Shown here: piece after piece, positions 3,363 to 29,952 of the stretch | Layout of the letters: each line of letters begins with the position of its first letter | Numbering within the stretch: position 1 is the stretch's first letter | Source: a virus | IMG/VR virus record: IMGVR_UViG_3300006318_000005 | Location: 1-30,074 of that record | DNA: 30,074 nt | Reading direction: 5' to 3' (one strand) | Translations under genes and position numbers: made by a program | The notes under the pieces: model-generated | What the model saw: only the letters and a program-made list of their open reading frames with translations | The model's database searches: none | Told to the model about the DNA's origin: nothing

Positions 3363-4095
3363 GTCTGCCCCCTTTTTGTTGTCGCCGCAATGGTGGCACC
3401 ACGCCCACCGCCCGCGCGAGTTTCAACGTGATCACCACGTCACGCTTGACGTGCTTTTTGACCGCGGACCAATCATTCGCCAGGACTGCCGCGGGAACGT
3501 CCGCCCCCGTAATCGGATCCGCTGGACCAGTCAACGCCCGCCGGTCCGCGTGGAAACTTAACGATCGCCGTTGCAAAATACCGCCGAACGATAACGCGAT
3601 CATCAGATCCACCACGTCGCCACGCGTGCGATACGGGTGGAGATCAAACGATCGCGCGACGGGCACGCCAAGATAGTCCGACCGCCGCAAAAGATACGGC
3701 AGATCAAACGCTACGCAGTTATAGCCAACCAGGATCGCCCGCGCCGCCACCGTCCACCACTTCCGAAGTAAATACCGTTCCTGGCGTTCTGTTTTCGCAA
3801 TCGCTGATAACGTCCGCCCAGTCGCCTCATCCCACCACCCGATCGCCACAATCCGCCCTAGATCCGGATCCAGCGCGGCCCGATCGAGTAGTTCTTGACG
3901 TTTTCGATCCACATACGCCGCGATCTTGACCGGATCGCGATACGACCCCGGCGCGGACACCGCGGGCACCCACGCCGCCGCGCGATCATGCGCGGCTGTT
4001 TCGATATCAAACACCACGCGCCGCGACACGCCCGCCGCGTCTAATCGATCCGCCACTTGGCGCGCGCCGATCGTCCGGACTTTCTGTTGTGACAT
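3340..4095 (-). CDS. DnaQ-like DEDDh 3'-5' exonuclease
   Basis: This predicted RNase-H-fold 3'-5' exonuclease shows three classic motifs: Exo I VVFDIET (D30, E32), Exo II GYNCVAFDLPYLL (D130) and Exo III HVKRD (H214, D218), giving a DEDDh set. The wording around Exo II resembles stand-alone PolB-related exonucleases found in phages. It likely trims or proofreads during replication or recombination. ATG 4095 was chosen; an ATG at 4104 in frame is equally possible, and a GTG at 4056 would reduce the overlap with the HNH gene. No polymerase gene is seen, so it probably works with the host replisome. Confidence 0.8.
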   Translation of the reverse strand: MSQQKVRTIGARQVADRLDAAGVSRRVVFDIETAAHDRAAAWVPAVSAPGSYRDPVKIAAYVDRKRQELLDRAALDPDLGRIVAIGWWDEATGRTLSAIAKTERQERYLLRKWWTVAARAILVGYNCVAFDLPYLLRRSDYLGVPVARSFDLHPYRTRGDVVDLMIALSFGGILQRRSLSFHADRRALTGPADPITGADVPAAVLANDWSAVKKHVKRDVVITLKLARAVGVVPPLRRQQKGGRRATDSND

Positions 4096-4418
4096 TGCAC
4101 ACATAGACTTTGATGATTCCGCGGATCCTCAAACTTCCGCCGGTTCTGTTTGTGATCCTGAATATGATCCACCACTGTCGCCAGTCGCCGCCGTCCCTGT
4201 GCCCGACATAAGACACAGAACGGATGATCCCGCAGATATTCCGCGCGGTATTTCTCCCACGCCCTCGTATACCCACGTTTGCGCGCACTTGGCCGCACCG
4301 CGTCCGCTTGTTTTCGCGCGGCCCGCTGACACGGATCGCAATACCCCGACAGCCGCGACGTTAATCGCACGCACCCGATCCGCCGACACGGACGTTTCGG
4401 TCGCGCTAACCCCTTCAC
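4041..4418 (-). CDS. HNH endonuclease with zinc knuckle
   Basis: This 125-aa protein has a C-terminal HNH domain: VVDHIQDHK (D84, H85), EDPRNHQSLC (N101) and CVQCHNRK (H110). Four cysteines at 68, 71, 106 and 109 form a structural zinc site. The N-terminus has extra Cys pairs (C11, C16, C27, C30), possibly a second zinc ribbon. GTG 4418 overlaps the previous stop as GTGA. Phage HNH proteins of this size often help terminase packaging, but those lie next to terminase genes. Here the gene sits in the early operon, so a role in recombination or host DNA breakdown, or a free-standing homing enzyme, is also possible. Confidence 0.85.
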   Translation of the reverse strand: MKGLARPKRPCRRIGCVRLTSRLSGYCDPCQRAARKQADAVRPSARKRGYTRAWEKYRAEYLRDHPFCVLCRAQGRRRLATVVDHIQDHKQNRRKFEDPRNHQSLCVQCHNRKSGRSARAKWRID

Positions 4419-4585
4419 CGATCCGCGTCATCCGTCCGGATCCGCACGTCGAACCGTCCCGACACCACCACCAGCGCGCCCGCGGCGAACGCCAACCCTA
4501 ACCCGATCAGGCTCCAGGGCTCGACATACACCACCGCCGCCGCGGTACACAAACACGCCGACACGTTGATCGCTAGTTGTAACAT
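4415..4585 (-). CDS. small membrane protein (56 aa, two TM segments)
   Basis: The start ATG 4585 lies 13 bases inside the end of the exported HNH gene, and the stop overlaps the next gene as GTGA, so the frame is fixed by both junctions. The product begins MLQLAINVSACLC and has two hydrophobic stretches, about residues 3-20 and 24-42, with a charged tail (RFDVRIRTDDADR). No family is recognised. It belongs to a run of tiny membrane proteins around an exported nuclease and may be a partner, anchor or immunity factor for it; this is inference from position alone. Confidence 0.65.
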   Translation of the reverse strand: MLQLAINVSACLCTAAAVVYVEPWSLIGLGLAFAAGALVVVSGRFDVRIRTDDADR

Positions 4586-5136
4586 TCGCACCCTTTCGAG
4601 GCATTGACGATCGCGTTAACTTCCGCCGGATCCGCCGTGAGTTGATAGGCGTGCTTAATGCCCCGCCACCGGTCAAGATATCCACAAACGTCGCGCCCTG
4701 GCATCCACGCCGCTGGATCGCGCGCGCCCTTGGACCGATTCACCGATCGCCCGGTCGGACTAAGGTTCCGGACGTCATTGGCAAACAGTCGCCGCCCCGC
4801 GTCCGTCCATTGGTCCGCGCCCGATCGCCACGCCTCCCGTAACGGCACGATATGATCAATATCCAACACCGACGCATCCGACACCGTGTCCCCGGTATAT
4901 GGATCGAGCCATAGCCCCAGGACAACCCGGCATCCCGTGGCGTCAAACGTGACCGGCACCGCGGACGACGCGATCAACACTTCCGCGCGCGTGTTCTTGC
5001 AATCAAAATCCTGATCCGTCCACCCGCCAAACCGATCGCGATCGTAAGTCGTTCTCGATCCACTTGTCGCCGCCACCACAATCGCGCCCGCGACCGCCAC
5101 GCCAAGCCCGACGCCGATTCCGTTGGTCCGCGTCAC
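4573..5136 (-). CDS. membrane-anchored or exported HNH nuclease (DUF1524/GmrSD-C-like)
   Basis: This 187-aa protein resembles a family of secreted HNH nucleases. A hydrophobic N-terminal segment (about residues 7-24) should act as a signal peptide or anchor. The mature part has YDRDRFGGW (31-39), C46 before NTRAEVL, C69, DPYTG (78-82), the active-site block DIDHIVPLREAW with D94 and H95, RSGADQW, LFANDVRNL (N120, N124), NRSKG (N133, K136) and W144. Cysteines 46, 69 and 151 fit an oxidising compartment. GTG 5136 is fixed by a GTGA overlap with the preceding small membrane gene. Secreted bacterial homologues act outside the cytoplasm. A copy in a phage early operon suggests attack on DNA at the cell surface or periplasm, for example incoming phage DNA; that role is inferred. 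Confidence 0.8.
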   Translation of the reverse strand: MTRTNGIGVGLGVAVAGAIVVAATSGSRTTYDRDRFGGWTDQDFDCKNTRAEVLIASSAVPVTFDATGCRVVLGLWLDPYTGDTVSDASVLDIDHIVPLREAWRSGADQWTDAGRRLFANDVRNLSPTGRSVNRSKGARDPAAWMPGRDVCGYLDRWRGIKHAYQLTADPAEVNAIVNASKGCECYN

Positions 5137-5264
5137 GGCGACACCGCCGCCGTAATCCACCACCGAATCAGCCCAATACAGATCCCCATCACCGCCACCC
5201 AAATCGCCCCACAGACGCCGAGCCAATACAGAAACGTCCAGAACTCCTGCAGCCGCCGATCCAT
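5133..5264 (-). CDS. small membrane protein (43 aa)
   Basis: ATG 5264 begins 4 bases after the previous stop, and the stop overlaps the HNH gene as GTGA. The product starts MDRRLQEFWTFLYWLG and continues through a long hydrophobic stretch (about residues 8-34: VCGAIWVAVMGICIGLI), ending RWWITAAVSP. One long or two short membrane helices are likely. It is tryptophan-rich. No family is recognised. Tight coupling to the nuclease downstream suggests the two act together. Confidence 0.62.
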   Translation of the reverse strand: MDRRLQEFWTFLYWLGVCGAIWVAVMGICIGLIRWWITAAVSP

Positions 5265-5268
5265 GTGC

Positions 5269-5349
5269 TTAAAACCCCGCCAACAACACCACCGCCACCA
5301 CTAGCACCACCACAAAGACCCAGATCGCGACAACGTACACCCCGATCAC
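5269..5349 (-). CDS. tiny single-pass membrane peptide (26 aa)
   Basis: GTG 5349 overlaps the stop of the preceding gene as GTGA, and TAA lies 4 bases before the next ATG. Nearly the whole product is one hydrophobic helix (VYVVAIWVFVVVLVVAVVLLAGF) with no charged residue. At 26 aa it is below usual annotation cut-offs, but both junctions follow the operon's pattern exactly. It could be a holin-like or exclusion peptide, or a membrane partner of the exported nuclease; no function can be read from it. Confidence 0.55.
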   Translation of the reverse strand: MIGVYVVAIWVFVVVLVVAVVLLAGF

Positions 5350-5618
5350 AATTCCGCCAACCGATCCGCAATCACGATCCGCCGTCGCACTGTCCGCGCG
5401 ATCTTCGCCGGTGCGTTCGTCGCCCGACATAACCGCCCGTCGTCAATGCGCGCCATTGTCCAGGCGTAATAGGCCCGCGCGTAGGTTTCTTTGACCAGAT
5501 CAACCGCTGGATCACCGGGCACTGTGACCCGCGATCGCCGCCGTTGATCGAACCCATCATCCGGCGCGGCCAACATTGCGGTATACACCGCAACCCGTTC
5601 TTGATCCGCCTCCGTCAT
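5346..5618 (-). CDS. hypothetical early protein (90 aa)
   Basis: ATG 5618 overlaps the previous stop as ATGA; the long upstream extension of the open frame is spurious. The product (MTEADQERVAVYTAM and so on) is charged and soluble, with a likely helical core (VDLVKETYARAYYAWTMARIDDGRL) and a basic C-terminal region (KIARTVRRRIVIADRLAEL). No family is recognised. It lies between two small membrane-protein genes in the early operon. Confidence 0.65.
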   Translation of the reverse strand: MTEADQERVAVYTAMLAAPDDGFDQRRRSRVTVPGDPAVDLVKETYARAYYAWTMARIDDGRLCRATNAPAKIARTVRRRIVIADRLAEL

Positions 5619-5785
5619 TTTTTCGCGTTGGGCGTGACCAACTTCCGCTGGACAAACGCCACGATCGTCGCCACCACGGACACCGTGATCGCCACTTCCT
5701 CCGCGTCCAGCTCCAACCCAAACGCCGCGGCCAATGCGACCGCGACCGAGATCAACGCCCCGCCCAACACCGGTTCTTTTCGCAT
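5615..5785 (-). CDS. small membrane protein (56 aa), holin-like architecture
   Basis: ATG 5785 has a strong GGAGGG nine bases upstream, among the best ribosome binding sites in the window, and marks the first gene of the small-protein cluster. The product has two hydrophobic stretches (GGALISVAVALAAAFGL and VAITVSVVATIVAFV) separated by an acidic turn (ELDAEE), ending in a basic tail (QRKLVTPNAKK). This hairpin resembles small phage holin-like proteins, but the lysis genes are in the late operon, so another membrane role is likely. It follows a roughly 230-base gap that holds a dispersed repeat. Confidence 0.7.
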   Translation of the reverse strand: MRKEPVLGGALISVAVALAAAFGLELDAEEVAITVSVVATIVAFVQRKLVTPNAKK

Positions 5786-5844: not shown

Positions 5845-6030
5845 CTAAAACTTGCCAGGGATCCGCCGCTGGACTAGGTCGCCGCCGCCGTCGTCGCCGT
5901 CCCACTTCTGCCCCGTTTTCGATATTTTCGACCCGGTCTCGATCGTTTTGACCGCGTCACGTTGCCTGTACGGCCACCCCATCGATCGCCGCAACCCCTC
6001 GCACCCCGACGATCTAGAACAATCGCCCAT
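5845..6030 (-). CDS. possible 61-aa ORF across the dispersed repeat
   Basis: In the gap between the winged-helix gene and the small membrane gene, a frame runs from ATG 6030 to a stop at 5845 and translates the repeat as GWPYRQRDAVKTIETG. The same frame stays open across the repeat copies at 13448 and 17135 (GWPYSGRDAVEISKSG and GWPYSERDAVGIVENG). It may be a decayed or very small gene, or chance. No strong ribosome binding site is seen. Confidence 0.2.
   Translation of the reverse strand: MGDCSRSSGCEGLRRSMGWPYRQRDAVKTIETGSKISKTGQKWDGDDGGGDLVQRRIPGKF
5906..6007. repeat. dispersed intergenic repeat, copy 1
   Basis: This copy starts TTCTGCCCCGTTTTCGA, contains GACCGCGTCACGTT, CTGTACGGCCA and GATCGCCGCAACCCCTCGCA, and ends CCCC. 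It fills the gap upstream of the small-membrane-protein cluster. It matches copies at 13448-13530 and 17135-17216, with about 18 extra bases in its middle. Each full copy lies just upstream of a leftward gene. Confidence 0.85.
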
Positions 6031-6657: not shown

Positions 6658-6963
6658 TCACGATCCCGGTACTCGCGCCTTTTTCGGAATCCCCTTTTGA
6701 GACTTGCGCGGCTTTTTTCGCACTGGCCGCGCGTGTCGGCAGTCATCACACCCGCCGCGACAGGTTTTTCCATGCTCTCGATCCCACGCTTCAAACCAGC
6801 TCCGCGCGTTTTGACTACTGGCAATGGCGCATGGATTCGCCGCCCGCGGAAACCCGCGCCGCGCCGCCGACCGCCCAAACGCCCGCGCCCGCTCCGGCGT
6901 CATCACGCCCAACAATGTTTTCCCGCGCCGCTTGGCGACCGGCAGCGACATCCGCGACGCCAT
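6658..6963 (-). CDS. small basic protein with Rmf/CrpP-like motif
   Basis: The 101-aa product is very basic. Its middle (ARAFGRSAARRGFPRAANPC, then SWFEAWDREHG) matches the short pattern of ribosome modulation factor-like and CrpP-like proteins common in phages and plasmids: a G-x-x-AA-x-x-G helix, NPC/NPY, then W-x-x-x-W. A CRGGCDDC cluster (three Cys) and a lysine-rich tail follow. ATG 6963 overlaps the SSB-like stop as TAATG. A role in binding ribosomes or nucleic acid is possible but unproven. Confidence 0.5.
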   Translation of the reverse strand: MASRMSLPVAKRRGKTLLGVMTPERARAFGRSAARRGFPRAANPCAIASSQNARSWFEAWDREHGKTCRGGCDDCRHARPVRKKPRKSQKGIPKKARVPGS

Positions 6964-8261: not shown

Positions 8262-8521
8262 GCGCGCGCCTGATGATCCGGAAACAGGGAATCCGCCGAC
8301 GTCGCCAACACCCGCGCGATCCGTTCCCGCGTTGATCGATCCGGACGCAGTCGCCCGATCTCGATCCGGCTGATCTGGTATTGCTCCAAATCACACACGA
8401 TCGCTAATTGTTTTTGTGTCAGCCCGCGCCGCTTGCGAACTTGGCGAATCTCACAACTAGCTATCGATTGACCGGTTTTGATCTCTTTTTCCGGGCGTGG
8501 CGCAAACACTCCGCTATCCAT
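8258..8521 (-). CDS. Cro-like XRE-family repressor
   Basis: The 87-aa protein has an XRE helix-turn-helix (EIRQVRKRRGLTQKQLAIVCDLEQYQISRIEIGRLRPDRSTRERIARVL) after a 17-residue N-terminal extension. It is the first gene of the leftward early operon, opposite the CI-like gene, so a Cro role is likely. The extension (VFAPRPEKEIKTG) matches the C-terminus of the CI-like protein (VFTPRPEKDIKAG). The promoter -10 box ends only 8 bases before the ATG, so the transcript is probably leaderless or nearly so. Confidence 0.82.
   Translation of the reverse strand: MDSGVFAPRPEKEIKTGQSIASCEIRQVRKRRGLTQKQLAIVCDLEQYQISRIEIGRLRPDRSTRERIARVLATSADSLFPDHQARA
8471..8512 (-). repeat. inverted copy of the repressor tag segment (with 8879-8920)
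   Basis: These 42 bases, read leftward, match 34 of 42 bases at 8879-8920 read rightward, with a 17-base identical core (CCACGCCCGGAAAAAGA). In the Cro-like gene they encode the N-terminal tag; in the CI-like gene they encode the last 14 residues. Confidence 0.85.
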
Positions 8522-8647: not shown

Positions 8648-8923
8648 ATGCTTATCGAGTGGCACGTCGGCGAAGTCATTAGAAAATTACGCCAACATCA
8701 TAGGCTTACCATTTCAGACCTGGCGCGCGATTCCGGCGTGTCGGTTTCATCAATTCAAGCCATTGAAGCCGGACGGAAATTTAAAACGACCACGCTGGAA
8801 AAACTGGCGGACACTTTCGATACCACGATCAACGAGTTATTCCGCCAGGTTCCACCCACAATGCACATCCCCGATCGCGAAGTGTTCACCCCACGCCCGG
8901 AAAAAGACATCAAGGCCGGATAG
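8648..8923 (+). CDS. CI-like XRE-family repressor (short)
   Basis: The 91-aa protein has an N-terminal XRE helix-turn-helix (VGEVIRKLRQHHRLTISDLARDSGVSVSSIQAIEAGRKFKTTTLEKLADTFDTTINELF) and a short C-terminal tail ending VFTPRPEKDIKAG. It has no protease-like or dimerisation domain, so SOS autocleavage as in lambda CI is not expected. It is the first rightward gene of the immunity region and precedes the PAS-type regulator. The tail is nearly the same peptide as the N-terminus of the opposed Cro-like protein. Confidence 0.82.
   Translation: MLIEWHVGEVIRKLRQHHRLTISDLARDSGVSVSSIQAIEAGRKFKTTTLEKLADTFDTTINELFRQVPPTMHIPDREVFTPRPEKDIKAG
8879..8920 (+). repeat. repressor tag segment, CI-like copy
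   Basis: This is the rightward member of the inverted pair described at 8471-8512. It encodes the last 14 residues of the CI-like protein and lies just before AGGAG, the ribosome binding site of the next HTH gene. Confidence 0.85.
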
Positions 8924-8934
8924 GAGAAAATAAA

Positions 8935-9660
8935 ATGTCATCGTCGTTGTCAGAAATTCGCTATCACCTGGGCGACATCATCCGCCAGGTCCGGATCGGT
9001 CGCGGATTGCGACTCGATCAGCTTGCCGCCGCCGCGAAGGTTTCCATAGACAAACTGTCCGATCTGGAACAGCACGGATCAGACTTGCACTTATCGGATC
9101 TGTTGTCTCTGGTAAAAACGCTAAAATTTGATCTGTTCGAAGCGTACGACGCGATCGAACGATCGCACTATCGCGCGAACGTTTACGCGCCAAAACTGTC
9201 GGTCGCGCCCTTCATTAACACCAAAGCCCCGACCGCGACGCTACTTCTGGAACTTGATCGCGACATGGTGTTACTCCGTGGCGAGATCCTGCAGGAACAC
9301 TTGATGTTGTTTCCGCAATCGCGCCTGGATCCCTATCTTGGATCGAATGCCTGGTCGAACATGATCAATCCAGACTTCTACGCCGCCATTCGCGCGAACG
9401 TCTTGGCGACGTACGACACAACCCGCGAACAATCAATGTCCTATGATCGCGTGTTGCCGTTTTCCGCCGGTCGCGCCTATCAGCACGACATCCGATTTAC
9501 GCTGAACGCCGACACGCAGACCGTTACAGCAACCACGTATCTGCTGCCGACCGCCGCGCAATCGACAACCGATTTCGAATGCTGCCGGAAGTATTCAAAT
9601 TGCGTGGAATGTTTTACAGCAACGGAACAGATGGCACCCGTTCGAACTCGAAAGGCGTAA
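8935..9660 (+). CDS. HTH-PAS-like regulator with C-terminal cysteine cluster
   Basis: The 241-aa protein has an XRE helix-turn-helix in residues 5-70 (EIRYHLGDIIRQVRIGRGLRLDQLAAAAKVSIDKLSDLEQ), a linker, then residues about 98-206 that read like a PAS fold: TATLLLELDRDMVLLRGE, a helical part with NAWSNMINPDFYAAIRANVLATYD, and paired strands HDIRFTLNADTQTVTATTYLLP. Four cysteines (216, 217, 223, 226) follow in a short tail. AGGAG lies 8 bases before ATG 8935. As partner of the CI-like repressor and integrase it may sense a small molecule or redox state to set the lysogeny decision; the fold call is by eye. Confidence 0.65.
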   Translation: MSSSLSEIRYHLGDIIRQVRIGRGLRLDQLAAAAKVSIDKLSDLEQHGSDLHLSDLLSLVKTLKFDLFEAYDAIERSHYRANVYAPKLSVAPFINTKAPTATLLLELDRDMVLLRGEILQEHLMLFPQSRLDPYLGSNAWSNMINPDFYAAIRANVLATYDTTREQSMSYDRVLPFSAGRAYQHDIRFTLNADTQTVTATTYLLPTAAQSTTDFECCRKYSNCVECFTATEQMAPVRTRKA

Positions 9661-9663
9661 CCC

Positions 9664-10833
9664 ATGCCACAACACAAACGCGGACGCGGAGAAGGCACGA
9701 TCCACAAGATCCGACCGACCTTATGGATGGGACGGATCAGCCTACCAAACAACACCCGCCGATCGGTGTACGGAAAGACCCGCGCCGCCGTGGTTCAAAA
9801 ACTGCGCGATCTCACGGTGCAGCGCGTCACCACGGGATCGACCGCACCAGGCACGGCGACCGTTGCCACGTTGATCGATCAGTTTCTCGACAGCAAACGA
9901 CCCACCCTCCGCCGGTCGAGCTTTCAAACGTACGAATCGCTGCTCCGGCAGCACGTCGCCCCGCTGATCGGCAGTCTTCGCGCCGCGGACCTGGATTCGG
10001 TCGCCATCGATCGCACGTTCCGCGATCTGCAAACGTCCGGCGCGACCGCGGCCACCGCAAAAAACGCGCGCAAACGTTTGTCCGCCGCGTTCCGGCACGG
10101 CATCAAGAAAGGCCTAGTCGCCCGGAATCCCGTCACCGACTCCGATCCGATTCGCCACCAGGCACCAGAAATGGCGATCTATACCGAAGACCAGATCGCC
10201 CGCCTGTTTGCCGCGACCGCCGGATCGCCGCTTCGCGCTATGTTTTACCTGGCCGCACTGTGCGGACCCCGCGCCAGCGAACTACTTGGCTTGACCTGGT
10301 CGCATATTGATCTACACGCGCGCACCGCAACGATCGCCGCGCAACTCTATATCGAAACGATCGGCGATTCGACCACGTACGAACTCCAACCGCTGAAGAC
10401 CAAAAACAGCCACCGGACGATCGCCTTGCCCGATCTACTGGTTCCGCTCCTGCAGGAACGCCGACAACTCCAAAACGAGGCCCGCTTGCGCGCCGGTCGC
10501 GACTGGATCGCGCCGGTCGCTGATCTGGTGTTTACGATGGACCGCCCCGCGCCGCACGGACCCGGAAGGCCCGGACGCCCCGTTCGCCGCGATCGCTTTC
10601 GGAAGATCTACTACCACCACCTAAACGCCGCGAACCTGCACCGGCTGCCGCTACACGCTCTGAGGCATACCGCCGCTAGTCTTTACCTTTCGAAAACTCA
10701 AGACGTCCATTCCGTGTCCCGCATGTTGGGACACTCCGGGATCAATATTACGATCGATACGTACGGCCACCTGCTCCGCGGACGACAACACGATAACGCC
10801 GCCGCCGTGAACGCGATCTTCGCGACCATCTAA
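9664..10833 (+). CDS. int: tyrosine recombinase integrase
   Basis: The 389-aa protein has the standard three parts: an arm-binding N-terminus (residues 1-60, GEGTIHKIRPTLWMGRISLP), a SAM-like core-binding domain (about 65-155, TLIDQFLDSKRPTLRRSSFQTYESLLRQHV split over two helices) and a catalytic domain with R203 (GPRASELLGL), H331 and R334 (HALRHTAAS), H357 (LGHSG) and nucleophile Y367 (TIDTYGH). It starts 3 bases after the regulator gene, so it is expressed with the immunity genes. attP follows directly downstream, with matching arm-site pairs on both sides of a tRNA-derived core. Confidence 0.95.
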   Translation: MPQHKRGRGEGTIHKIRPTLWMGRISLPNNTRRSVYGKTRAAVVQKLRDLTVQRVTTGSTAPGTATVATLIDQFLDSKRPTLRRSSFQTYESLLRQHVAPLIGSLRAADLDSVAIDRTFRDLQTSGATAATAKNARKRLSAAFRHGIKKGLVARNPVTDSDPIRHQAPEMAIYTEDQIARLFAATAGSPLRAMFYLAALCGPRASELLGLTWSHIDLHARTATIAAQLYIETIGDSTTYELQPLKTKNSHRTIALPDLLVPLLQERRQLQNEARLRAGRDWIAPVADLVFTMDRPAPHGPGRPGRPVRRDRFRKIYYHHLNAANLHRLPLHALRHTAASLYLSKTQDVHSVSRMLGHSGINITIDTYGHLLRGRQHDNAAAVNAIFATI

Positions 10834-10842
10834 CCGCAAAAA

Positions 10843-10864
10843 GTAAACCAATTGTAAACCAATT
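10843..10864 (+). repeat. left integrase arm-site pair
   Basis: Two exact tandem copies of GTAAACCAATT (10843-10853, 10854-10864) begin 10 bases after the integrase stop. An identical pair lies at 11104-11125, beyond the attP core, in the same orientation. Confidence 0.8.
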
Positions 10865-11096: not shown

Positions 11097-11103
11097 GGGA
11101 AAA

Positions 11104-11125
11104 GTAAACCAATTGTAAACCAATT
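11104..11125 (+). repeat. right integrase arm-site pair
   Basis: Two tandem copies of GTAAACCAATT, identical to those at 10843-10864, lie 52 bases beyond the attP core. Confidence 0.8.
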
Positions 11126-11211: not shown

Positions 11212-11283
11212 ATCTGGTACCGCTTTCTATTTCTGCTATAACTGCACTAACTAAAAGACTTATCGGCTCGACTAATGCCGGCG
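11212..11283. repeat. 72-bp direct repeat, copy at the end of the late operon
   Basis: This segment matches 29881-29952 in the same orientation with 2 mismatches in 72 bases. It lies 6 bases beyond the stop of the last late gene; the other copy lies 45 bases before the first late gene. It has no strong hairpin. Read leftward, one frame is open in both copies (PALVxPISxLVSAVIAEIESGTR). Confidence 0.95.
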
Positions 11284-11822: not shown

Positions 11823-13129
11823 TTGTCGCCCGTCCTTTCATAAAATCGCCGATCCACGTCATACCAAAACAGCTTGACCGAATTGAGATCCGACACCCAC
11901 CGTTCGACGCCGCCGCCGTCCGTTTCCCTGGTCTGATCGAACGCGACCCACCCGCGCCGCTGTGGTGGACCGCCCCGGACCGCTGTTGGCTGGACTTGAT
12001 ACCGTTGCGTACTGACCAGACACCCGGTCTCGACCAATAATTGATCCGCGTGGTATGGAATCATCGCGAGGGAATGCGTATGCCCGCACAACACCAACCG
12101 CGGTACCCGTTCTAGTCCGAGCGTTTGCCTATTCTGCGACAAGTATTCCGCCGTCCGCCGTAGGTGTGTGCCTGGAACTTTGCTGTAGCCCTCGCCATGC
12201 CCGACCCAACAATCGGACCCGACTACGGTAAACCAATCGATCACCACGGGCGGGACCGTCCCAGGCACCGCCCAATCTGCGATCGTGACATTCTGGAACC
12301 CGCGCGCGATCGCGCGCACCGGATCCAACGTCCCCGCCAAACTGACGATCGCGTCTACCGCGTCCTGTGTTAGATTCGCCTCCCGGACCCGCTTTTGTAA
12401 TCGGCGATCATGATTGCCGATCACAATCACGACTTGAGGGAAACGGGAGGAAAGTTCCTCCATCACGATTTGAAGTTCCGCAAATTCTGCGCGCCACCCG
12501 CCCAGGTTATCTTCCTTGGTGTACGAACTGACCGAAAACGAATCCGACAGATCGCCCATACACACACAGAGATCCGCGCCCTCGTTCGCCTGGAGCCAAT
12601 CCGCAAACATGCGAACATCGTGAACTGGCACATGTAGATCGCTCAACACCGCGACGCGCCGCCGTTCCGTAGCCTGGGACGGTTCCGCCGCGCCCCGATA
12701 TTTGGATCCACGCATCCCGATCAACGCTTGCCACTTGGACCACGCTTCCGGATAGGCTAACTCTAACGCGGGACGATAAGTTCCCGTTGTTGGATCCGTT
12801 TCCGCCGCCGTCTGGATCGCGCCCGCCCGATAACACCGCACGCACTGTTTCGATCGTGACGTGATAGGCGTGTTGCACGTTTGGCAGGTGTACCGCTTTT
12901 TTTTGCTACTGCTATCTGGACCCCGCGATCGGTAACATTCTAAACAGAGTTTCGCCGTCACCGAGCCCAACACCCGCCCGCACTTCTCACACGTTGGTTT
13001 CGGTTTTCCTGGAAATTGTGGCGGATCTTTCCGGTAGCACGCCATGCAGCGTTTGGCCCGATAACTGCAGGGACCGCCACACGTTGGACACAGATATTTT
13101 TCAGGCGTGATCGGCTTCGACATGGACAT
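11819..13129 (-). CDS. metallophosphoesterase with three N-terminal zinc ribbons
   Basis: The 436-aa protein starts with three consecutive Cys4 modules (CPTC...CMAC, CEKC...CLEC, CQTC...CVRC; residues about 13-105) and then a calcineurin-like phosphoesterase domain: DLHVP, GDLSDS, GNHDRR, GHGEG and CGHTHS, all five metal-binding blocks. It could cut a phosphodiester in a nucleotide, nucleic acid or cell-wall precursor; the substrate cannot be read. The zinc ribbons suggest nucleic-acid or protein docking. The start was set at the ATG pair 13129/13123, inside the endolysin end; upstream in-frame ATGs at 13174 and 13159 are alternatives. A phosphoesterase after the endolysin is unusual. Confidence 0.85.
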   Translation of the reverse strand: MSMSKPITPEKYLCPTCGGPCSYRAKRCMACYRKDPPQFPGKPKPTCEKCGRVLGSVTAKLCLECYRSRGPDSSSKKKRYTCQTCNTPITSRSKQCVRCYRAGAIQTAAETDPTTGTYRPALELAYPEAWSKWQALIGMRGSKYRGAAEPSQATERRRVAVLSDLHVPVHDVRMFADWLQANEGADLCVCMGDLSDSFSVSSYTKEDNLGGWRAEFAELQIVMEELSSRFPQVVIVIGNHDRRLQKRVREANLTQDAVDAIVSLAGTLDPVRAIARGFQNVTIADWAVPGTVPPVVIDWFTVVGSDCWVGHGEGYSKVPGTHLRRTAEYLSQNRQTLGLERVPRLVLCGHTHSLAMIPYHADQLLVETGCLVSTQRYQVQPTAVRGGPPQRRGWVAFDQTRETDGGGVERWVSDLNSVKLFWYDVDRRFYERTGDN

Positions 13130-13436
13130 GATCCGCGGGACTGGTTGACGTCGGACCATGCGCGACAATGTCATAGGGATCGCCCAACCGCCGCCGAAGA
13201 TATCGCGCGAGATCTTCCAGTTTCGCCACCCGTTCCGAATGCGTGATCGAAAAATCCCACGCGAGATCGTCCGGATGTAAACTGTTCTTACTCCGCCCCG
13301 CCGCCCCGTCCGCCGCGGACGTCATCCGGACATCAATTCCGGATCGTTCCGACCAGTCGCACACATGCCGCAACACCGGGATCAGCTCCGGATAGACTCG
13401 ACGCATTCGAACCGCCGCTTTAAACCGCAACATCAC
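13101..13436 (-). CDS. endolysin, M15-type D,D-/L-Ala-D-Glu peptidase
   Basis: The 111-aa protein has the M15 zinc-peptidase signature: RMTSAADG, a SLHPDDLAWDFS block with H54 and D61, then YDIVAHG and DHVHVE with H103 and H105 as ligands. Phage members cut peptide cross-bridges of peptidoglycan. It lacks a cell-wall-binding domain and a signal peptide, so release would need the holin encoded just upstream. The start is GTG 13436 or the adjacent ATG 13433, with AGGCGG upstream. A dispersed repeat precedes it. Confidence 0.85.
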   Translation of the reverse strand: MMLRFKAAVRMRRVYPELIPVLRHVCDWSERSGIDVRMTSAADGAAGRSKNSLHPDDLAWDFSITHSERVAKLEDLARYLRRRLGDPYDIVAHGPTSTSPADHVHVEADHA

Positions 13437-13447
13437 CGATCCGCCTG

Positions 13448-13530
13448 TTCTGCCCCACTTTTGGAAATTTCGACCGCGTCACGTCCGCTGTACGGCCATC
13501 CAACCGATCGCCGCAACCCCTGGCACCCCG
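13448..13530. repeat. dispersed intergenic repeat, copy 2
   Basis: This copy fills the gap between the holin-like gene and the endolysin. It runs from TTCTGCCCC through GACCGCGTCACGT and GCTGTACGGCCATCCAACCG to CACCCCG. It is most like the copy at 17135-17216, and its TTCTGCCCC half resembles the coding copy at 25411-25444. Confidence 0.88.
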
Positions 13531-13535
13531 TAAAA

Positions 13536-13811
13536 TCACGCCGCCGCCCGTTTCTTGGCGACCGTGTTTTCGAGTAGCACCACCAGATCCACGATCTGCC
13601 GGACGATCCGTTCGGTATCCGGATCCGCGAGTAGCGATTCCGCCGACTCGATCCCCGTGCTCCGAGAAATCGACAACAACGTCCGGATCACTTCCACCGC
13701 CGAATCCTGTTTTGCCTGGGAACTTTCCCCGCGGACAAACTGTTCCACCCATTGCACCGCCGACACCACCATCGGCAGAATTGACGCCGCGACCTTGACC
13801 CATTGCAGCAT
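13536..13811 (-). CDS. holin-like protein (91 aa)
   Basis: ATG 13811 overlaps the previous stop as TAATG. The N-terminal segment (WVKVAASILPMVVSAVQWVEQFV) is amphipathic to hydrophobic and can insert in a membrane. The rest is helical and charged, with a second long helix (IVRQIVDLVVLLENTVAKKRAAA). Position between the coiled-coil holin-like gene and the endolysin suggests a lysis role. The family is not recognised. Confidence 0.55.
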   Translation of the reverse strand: MLQWVKVAASILPMVVSAVQWVEQFVRGESSQAKQDSAVEVIRTLLSISRSTGIESAESLLADPDTERIVRQIVDLVVLLENTVAKKRAAA

Positions 13812-14074
13812 TAGCCCCCCTTATTCACCACGTTAAAGACCGCCGCCGTCGCCGACGACACGATCGCCGCAATCACGCCGCCCCACCGCGCGACCGTACC
13901 CCGCAATGTCGCGACCCGTTCCGCTTGTGTCGCGATCTCGATCTCATTCTCCCTAACGCGTCCGTTTAACGAATCCAGCCGATCGACCACGCGATCGAAC
14001 CCACGTTCGATCGACTGATCCAACGTCTGGATCCGTGCTTCGAACTCCGGACGCGTGATCGGCGACCCGCTCAC
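13811..14074 (-). CDS. coiled-coil, C-terminally anchored lysis protein (XhlA-like)
   Basis: The 87-aa protein has a long coiled coil (FEARIQTLDQSIERGFDRVVDRLDSLNGRVRENEIEIATQAERVATLRGTV, in heptads over residues 10-62) and one C-terminal membrane helix (WGGVIAAIVSSATAAVFNVV). This is the plan of XhlA/hemolysin-like phage lysis proteins. GTG 14074 overlaps the previous stop as GTGA. It probably works with the holin-like product just downstream. Confidence 0.7.
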   Translation of the reverse strand: MSGSPITRPEFEARIQTLDQSIERGFDRVVDRLDSLNGRVRENEIEIATQAERVATLRGTVARWGGVIAAIVSSATAAVFNVVNKGG

Positions 14075-17117: not shown

Positions 17118-17134
17118 TCGCTCCGATCCGTCTC

Positions 17135-17216
17135 TTCTGCCCCATTTTCGACAATTCCGACCGCGTCACGTTCGCTGTACGGCCATCCAACCGATCGTTG
17201 CAACCCCTCGCACCCC
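17135..17216. repeat. dispersed intergenic repeat, copy 3
   Basis: This copy fills the gap between the tape measure stop and the hub gene start. It shares GACCGCGTCACGTTCGC, TGTACGGCCATCCAACCGA and GCAACCCCTCGCACCCC with the other copies. Confidence 0.88.
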
Positions 17217-25307: not shown

Positions 25308-26005
25308 GCCCCGCCCTCCCCTGTTAAGAAATGCTCATGTAGCCGTTGACGCCGTCGCCGAATATCGGTCCTGGAATCGCCCCCAGGATCCGACACTGGA
25401 TCCGCGTCCTGTTCTGCCCCGTTTTTGGAATCTTCGACCGCGTCTTGTGCTGCCGCCTGGTCTTTTGTCTGGCGATACGCCGCCACTGTCGCCCGTGCTT
25501 CCGTCACCGTCGCCGACGTGTCCGGATAGGCTGGATTTACGACGACACTTACGTCCAATAATTCCACCGACTCAAGTACCCGCAACGGCAGATCGCCATC
25601 CGTCGCCGGATCCACCCATCGATCGCCGCCGTCATGTGGAAGAAACGCAAAACTCGATCCGCCCAGGTCGCCGCGTTCACACACCGCCAAGACATGATCG
25701 CCGATCGGTCCCTCCGGGACGCTGACGCTATATTTCAACCCTTGCGGCGTCACGTCGATCGCACACGTCCCGGACCGCGTCGATCCAATCACCCAGTTGA
25801 GATCATGGTTAAACGTCGCGACCACTGGCCCATCATTCCGACTCTCAAACGCCGACGGACTGATCCGTTCGCGGTAGACGCCGCCGATCGTGGTTTCCTG
25901 GTCGAAGATCGCCGCGTAGCCTTCAATCGTCCGCGTCTTCGTTGCGGACCGTGTCGCCCGCGTCCGCTCATCCGCGACCATGCGCCGTTCTGGTTTTGCC
26001 GTCAT
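25304..26005 (-). CDS. HK97-type prohead protease (S78) with repeat-derived tail
   Basis: The 233-aa protease has the family blocks RTIEGYAAIFDQET, FNHDLNWVIGSTRSGT (catalytic H), GDLGGSSFAFLP (catalytic S) and LLDVSVVVNPAYPDTSATV. It matures the capsid by removing the delta domain. After residue about 185 the tail DAVEDSKNGAEQDADP is encoded by a segment (25411-25444) that matches the dispersed intergenic repeat. ATG 26005 overlaps the portal stop as ATGA. Confidence 0.92.
   Translation of the reverse strand: MTAKPERRMVADERTRATRSATKTRTIEGYAAIFDQETTIGGVYRERISPSAFESRNDGPVVATFNHDLNWVIGSTRSGTCAIDVTPQGLKYSVSVPEGPIGDHVLAVCERGDLGGSSFAFLPHDGGDRWVDPATDGDLPLRVLESVELLDVSVVVNPAYPDTSATVTEARATVAAYRQTKDQAAAQDAVEDSKNGAEQDADPVSDPGGDSRTDIRRRRQRLHEHFLTGEGGA
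25411..25444. repeat. dispersed repeat fragment inside the protease gene (copy 4)
   Basis: These 34 bases (GTTCTGCCCCGTTTTTGGAA and TCTTCGACCGCGTC) match the first half of the intergenic repeat, closest to copy 2. Here it lies in frame near the protease C-terminus. Confidence 0.75.
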
Positions 26006-29880: not shown

Positions 29881-29952
29881 ATCTGGTACCGCTTTCTATT
29901 TCTGCTATAACTGCACTAACTAAAACACTTATCGGCGCGACTAATGCCGGCG
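29881..29952. repeat. 72-bp direct repeat, copy upstream of terS
   Basis: This segment is the second copy of 11212-11283 (70 of 72 bases identical). Read leftward it lies in the terS leader and may include late promoter elements. Confidence 0.95.

Follow-up and report, generated by a model that had tools for sequence, protein, structure and literature searches.

A candidate membrane-anchored extracytoplasmic DNase of the DUF1524 type encoded by a temperate tailed phage

Why would a phage encode a nuclease that appears to leave the cytoplasm, and what is the meaning of the tiny membrane proteins encoded around it? The locus that raises these questions lies in an IMG/VR virus record of 30,074 bp that was analysed over its whole length (the window). 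A preliminary description had regarded six leftward genes at 4415-5785 as a candidate superinfection-exclusion cassette, in which a membrane-placed nuclease made early could cut the DNA of competing phages as it enters. The analysis reported here leads to a narrower reading, to which we give a probability of about 0.4, namely that the gene at 4573-5136 encodes a membrane-anchored extracytoplasmic DNase that destroys incoming DNA, a use in exclusion included.

The genome that carries this locus is that of a temperate tailed phage. Its temperate nature follows from repressor-type genes and an integrase that are transcribed rightward within 8648-10833, while all genes outside this segment run leftward, starting with a Cro-like gene and early genes, followed by replication genes (initiator, DnaC-like loader and exonuclease) and then by genes for a Dam methylase and a QueE-like protein, and continuing round the circle through the terminase, head and tail genes and the late module. 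The contig L010 starts 80 bases past the right end of the window, and its first 40 bases are those of the window in reverse complement. L010 thus bridges the two ends (L010 1-80; window 1 and 30074), so the genome is circular or permuted with about 40 bases missing. Although classed as linear, the record covers nearly the whole of a circular or permuted genome that measures about 30.11 kb. A close DNA match to the window is absent among named phages.

All six linked leftward ORFs of the proposed cassette are present on the minus strand with the sizes that had been given for them, and the chain extends by a GTGA overlap to a seventh gene absent from the preliminary description, which encodes a second, 125-aa HNH endonuclease (Table 1). 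The ATGA, GTGA or four-base junctions described earlier are found between the first 56-aa and the 90-aa gene (ATGA), between the 90-aa and the 26-aa gene and the 43-aa and the nuclease gene (both GTGA) and between the 26-aa and the 43-aa gene (a 4-base gap), whereas the nuclease gene and the second 56-aa gene overlap by 13 nt. A codon-usage score trained on the large genes of the phage itself ranks the annotated frame above the other five in every ORF of the run and speaks against an upstream extension of the nuclease start. Hydropathy predicts the transmembrane segments listed in Table 1 and, for the nuclease, a single N-terminal segment at residues 6-24. This concentration of strongly hydrophobic ORFs is unusual, since the 1,371 nt contain five of them compared with a mean of 0.23 in a second-order random model built from this stretch, in which none of 1000 trials reached five or more. 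In sliding windows the minus strand reaches five such ORFs in one window and the plus strand never has more than two. The first 56-aa protein matches the PHROG holin family phrog_9752 (E=5.8e-7) and no Pfam family, and may thus be called holin-like. The 90-aa protein has no match in Pfam or PHROG and the second 56-aa protein none in PHROG, and tblastn of the 56-aa and 90-aa proteins against named phages returned nothing at E<=1.

Table 1. Positions of the genes and repeats discussed in the text
Feature	Position	Strand	Remarks
56-aa membrane protein, two TM	5615-5785	-	ATG; Shine-Dalgarno-like GGAGG upstream; codon score 0.70
90-aa soluble protein, no known family	5346-5618	-	codon score 0.52
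26-aa single-TM peptide	5269-5349	-	GTG, overlaps preceding stop; hydropathy 3.43; codon score 0.62
43-aa single-TM peptide	5133-5264	-	hydropathy 2.43; codon score 0.44
187-aa DUF1524 (GmrSD_C) HNH endonuclease, N-terminal anchor/export segment	4573-5136	-	GTG; PF07510
56-aa two-TM membrane protein, no family	4415-4585	-	ATG; codon score 0.56
125-aa cytoplasmic HNH endonuclease	4041-4418	-	PF01844 29.6 bits; phrog_144 9e-31
About 94-nt leader repeat	5914-6007	-	gap upstream of first 56-aa gene (5615-5785)
About 94-nt leader repeat, copy	13436-13529	-	fills gap before putative cell-wall peptidase gene
About 94-nt leader repeat, copy	17123-17216	-	fills gap before tail gene
Haemolysin/XhlA-like gene	13811-14074	leftward	late module
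Putative cell-wall peptidase gene	13101-13436	leftward	motifs SLHPDDLAWD and HVHVE only

The proposal that the six genes form a unit is not borne out by the relatives. The closest ones, with about 53% identity, are found in L011, L012 and L014 and come from related phages, of which L012 and L014 share with the window a metallophosphoesterase, the portal, capsid and protease, a tail protein and other proteins, mostly at 35-48% identity. In all three the gene for the exported HNH protein overlaps by 8 nt with the gene directly downstream, which encodes a phrog_144-type HNH protein; in the window one 56-aa gene sits between the two. No small hydrophobic ORFs are found near the nuclease gene in these three phages, nor is the cassette order kept. 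Across 29 family clusters, 11 same-strand small hydrophobic ORFs lie within 1 kb of the nuclease gene where 11.5 would be expected from the rest of each locus, so that a family-wide association is absent as well. Since the order is kept without the tiny genes, what this group of phages conserves is the pair of exported and cytoplasmic HNH proteins, next to which the tiny membrane proteins are local, phage-specific neighbours. The same observations bear on a different view of the block, which treats all of it as a second lysis or host-takeover module where the membrane is permeabilised or reorganised by holin-like and tiny transmembrane proteins, with the nuclease merely riding along. The phrog_9752 match of the first gene, the tight packing of five hydrophobic ORFs and their overlapping, probably coupled starts are what such a module might look like, but the block contains no endolysin gene, and the occurrence of the nuclease without small membrane genes in related phages, together with the lack of association throughout the family, makes this view quite improbable.

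The nuclease itself, a single-domain protein, fared better. Its assignment to the DUF1524 type was confirmed by a score of 35.6 bits for Pfam GmrSD_C (PF07510), for which the curated cut-off is 23, with nothing else of weight. PADLOC gave no substantial match (best E 0.007), and the protein has no sequence match in the PDB. That it might belong to a type IV restriction enzyme was rejected, as neither the protein nor its scanned neighbours contain DUF262. A profile search of viral contigs with a trimmed four-member family alignment found relatives on at least 246 IMG/VR contigs, and the best 80 of these were retained; when the viral contigs were searched with one sequence at a time, neither the nuclease nor the exonuclease gave a match. 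Among 45 non-redundant family members R50, D94, H95 and K136 are invariant, and N120 and N133 are kept in 42 and 43 of them, respectively.

The N-terminal export or anchor segment and the cysteines noted in the preliminary description proved to be features of the whole family. A hydrophobic N-terminal segment precedes the domain in 43/45 non-redundant members as judged by hydropathy, and a four-cysteine pattern, C-x(18-26)-C-x(76-92)-C-x(28-35)-C, represented in the window protein by C46, C69, C151 and C183, occurs in 71/78 members. Furthermore, the DUF1524 relative gp27 of Gordonia phage Finkle carries a C-terminal Excalibur domain, an extracellular calcium-binding domain, and the Salinispora relative (L002) resembles a lipoprotein. 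Together, the N-terminal segments, the four cysteines, the Excalibur fusion and the lipoprotein-like relative make export of the 187-aa protein across the membrane well supported at the level of sequence, and we hold the combination of export with a nuclease fold to be very probable. Beside gp27, Finkle gp28 (L005 6702-7172) is a second predicted exported protein with an Excalibur domain. One could instead suppose that the N-terminal segment does not serve export and that a cytoplasmic HNH protein, paired with the 125-aa one, acts on the DNA of the host or the phage, in host-DNA breakdown, packaging or recombination. The order of the nuclease and phrog_144 HNH genes kept in related phages and their location among replication genes agree with this supposition, as does a precedent, in that some phage HNH proteins act with terminase. 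Near-universal hydrophobic N-terminal segments of different types, four conserved cysteines and a fusion to Excalibur would be hard to reconcile with it, however, and we rate it as very improbable.

The AlphaFold model has a pLDDT of 96-98 across the nuclease domain and low values over the first 30 residues, as expected for a lone transmembrane helix. When it was compared with the PDB using Foldseek, the top folds were Vvn, which is periplasmic, and the extracellular Endonuclease I of Vibrio, with probabilities of 0.99-1.00; these matches are weak (TM 0.35-0.44, E 0.0045-0.027), and nothing was found at E<=0.001. The nearest viral model is another GmrSD_C protein (E 9e-15). The Endonuclease I family is not among the Pfam matches, and the predicted resemblance is a weak one that suggests similarity of kind, not membership.

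When the nuclease is produced can be approached from two directions. The cassette belongs to the run of leftward genes that sets out from the repressor region, close to a promoter-like site at 8558-8530, and early expression would follow from this position. In the gap upstream of the first 56-aa gene, however, there is a repeat of about 94 nt that also occupies the intergenic gaps preceding a tail gene and the gene of the putative cell-wall peptidase (Table 1), the 5914 and 17123 copies being 71% and 88% identical to the 13436 copy. Its 33-mer core, GGGGTTGCGGCGATCGGTTGGATGGCCGTACAG, occurs three times within 3 mismatches (0.00 expected). The repeat is likely a shared promoter or leader, in which case the cassette could be a transcription unit of its own, perhaps with the timing of late genes. 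With an early position on one side and a late-gene leader repeat on the other, early production of the nuclease, as stated before, is a possibility. The repeat has no Rfam match, and its explanation as a known RNA was given up. A further fragment of it, at 25391-25448, sits inside the protease gene.

The settings in which relatives are found differ by lineage. In freshwater phage clusters the nuclease gene lies between a D5-type primase/helicase and a CHAP endolysin, and in L013, L033 and L036 it is at or beside the CHAP endolysin gene; in L024 it directly precedes a GH108 endolysin. In several temperate proteobacterial clusters it is on the strand opposite to its neighbours, between early genes and a CI/S24-type repressor, and in Finkle it is located between tail genes and HTH repressor-like genes. 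The neighbours of other relatives are unknown genes. A fixed partner across all phages was rejected, as primase/helicase, repressor or endolysin genes adjoin the nuclease according to lineage, and no single genomic setting fixes its role.

The endolysin-adjacent relatives are a reason to consider that the exported nuclease serves lysis or feeding, by degrading host DNA released at lysis or extracellular DNA and so lowering viscosity, freeing virions or supplying nucleotides and phosphate. The leader repeat that the cassette has in common with the putative cell-wall peptidase and tail genes and the holin-like first gene fit this scenario, and in bacteria, extracellular DNases are known to act in nutrition and in biofilms (PMC4372405). 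Yet the window product appears to be anchored in the membrane and not released, the temperate proteobacterial group has the gene beside the repressor and away from the lysis genes, and the putative peptidase gene of the window, for which library searches gave no supporting match, forms with the haemolysin/XhlA-like gene a separate late module (13101-14074). A role in lysis or feeding is therefore judged unlikely.

The reading that we put forward, an envelope DNase acting on incoming DNA, would work as follows. The N-terminal helix would pass the chain through the host inner membrane and then hold the nuclease there, and its domain would fold in the oxidising envelope, stabilised by disulfides. 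The export, the disulfides and the fold are predictions from sequence, conservation and modelled structure. The HNH metal site (D94/H95 with the conserved N120, N133 and K136) would cut DNA, probably without sequence specificity, judging from the fold and from precedents. Its target would be DNA that reaches the envelope of a cell during infection or lysogeny, in the first place that of entering competitor phages or other elements, while the phage's own replicating DNA would be out of reach in the cytoplasm and the anchor would retain the enzyme on the cell that produced it. The tiny membrane proteins next to the nuclease would not be needed for cutting DNA at the envelope.

By analogy, the exclusion of competing phages is a plausible use of such an enzyme. 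It is suggested by the nearest folds, which are those of enzymes in or beyond the envelope, by the repressor-side position of the gene in other temperate phages, a usual site of morons expressed in lysogens, and by Campylobacter prophage-like elements whose extracellular DNases block DNA uptake. On the other hand, the similarity to the Endonuclease I fold is weak (TM ~0.4), the endolysin-side positions elsewhere fit a lysis or nutrient role equally, the timing is possibly late, and the window gene is part of a lytic operon rather than in a classic moron slot. Delivery of DNA shielded by the tail also counts against exclusion, as tailed phages deliver their DNA via the tail channel, which may protect it from envelope nucleases.

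Several known systems resemble the window protein in part. Among the secreted single-domain DUF1524 HNH proteins of bacteria, the lipoprotein-like Salinispora protein shares the domain, the cysteines and an N-terminal export segment at about 40% identity, but is encoded by a bacterial chromosomal gene, whereas that of the window comes from a phage and has a short transmembrane anchor. Named phages with a relative number only five (6 of 50,697 records, and the same six records with another query): Rhodococcus phages Dorin and Francesca (gp140), Gordonia phage Finkle (gp27) and the Vibrio jumbo phages pVp-JHP1101 and pVa-21 encode an exported DUF1524 HNH domain as well, and Dorin gp140 even agrees with the window protein in its 187 aa and N-terminal transmembrane segment. 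They differ from it in having 33-41% identity and other neighbours, and they are annotated only as 'HNH endonuclease' or 'membrane protein'. GmrSD, BrxU and SspE likewise have a C-terminal DUF1524 HNH domain; these are cytoplasmic proteins with an N-terminal DUF262 NTPase domain, which the window protein lacks. The Endonuclease I family (Vvn, Vibrio EndA/Dns), although the best structural match and envelope-located or secreted, has no sequence similarity to the window protein that could be found. Enzymes of this family limit DNA uptake. For Vibrio cholerae, such limitation of DNA uptake is also stated in PMC4372405.

Phage elements that supply an extracytoplasmic DNase, as the window phage would, include those encoding Campylobacter CJIE1 Dns, CJE0566 and CJE1441 and streptococcal phage Spd-3, and the exported DNase YokF of B. 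subtilis SPbeta is phage-borne too. These DNases belong to other nuclease families and are lysogenic-conversion genes rather than members of a lytic operon. The Campylobacter elements CJIE1/2/4 encode extracellular DNases blocking natural transformation (PMC4372405, PMC7291426), and CJIE1 Dns, CJE0566 and CJE1441 are phage-element DNases that block DNA uptake (PMC4372405, PMC7291426, PMC3629212). The membrane superinfection-exclusion proteins T4 Imm and P22 SieA are comparable to the proposed role in that they would act on DNA during entry; unlike it, they block passage, and the word 'nuclease' is absent from a 2024 review of superinfection exclusion (PMC11436027). Nuclease-based superinfection exclusion was likewise not found in the open literature searched.

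Phage-borne exported DNases are thus of a kind already known, while a large family of exported DUF1524 nucleases in environmental phages was not found described as such. Against the five named phages stand at least 246 uncultivated viral contigs with unrelated genome contexts, and the export signal and the cysteines have been retained as the nuclease gene was passed around. Should the enzyme cut entering DNA, it would add nuclease action as a direct means of superinfection exclusion and of phage control over gene transfer; should it act at lysis or on extracellular DNA, phages would have a role in DNA recycling. An envelope-DNase weapon, if true, would give superinfection exclusion a class that relies on a nuclease, which the review (PMC11436027) does not mention. 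The broadest form of this idea, that exported DUF1524 nucleases, membrane-tethered or secreted and made by resident or infecting phages, are a widespread and unrecognised phage weapon shredding incoming DNA at the envelope in many environmental bacteria, seems somewhat doubtful to us.

Apart from the nuclease locus, the window has several further features. An inverted repeat of 47 nt (83%) at 8472-8518 and 8873-8919 extends across two divergent repressor-type genes. Its arms code for almost identical peptides, VF[AT]PRPEK[ED]IK[TA]G, one lying close to the N-terminus of its protein and the other at the C-terminus. A direct repeat of 72 nt with 97% identity is present near the integrase side (11212-11283) and upstream of the terminase (29881-29952), and an exact 26-nt repeat, AAAAGTAAACCAATTGTAAACCAATT, found at 10839-10864 and 11100-11125 directly after the integrase stop, may mark attachment or integrase-arm sites. 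The 101-aa protein encoded at 6658-6963 is weakly similar to ribosome modulation factor (RMF) and conserved at 42% in the related L011 and L014; a viral-contig search with it returned the same three related phages and nothing further. Finally, a QueE-like radical SAM protein (phrog_2076) adjoins a phrog_15826 protein (222-902 and 817-1416), which may point to a DNA modification of the 7-deazaguanine type, a possible shield of the phage DNA from nucleases.
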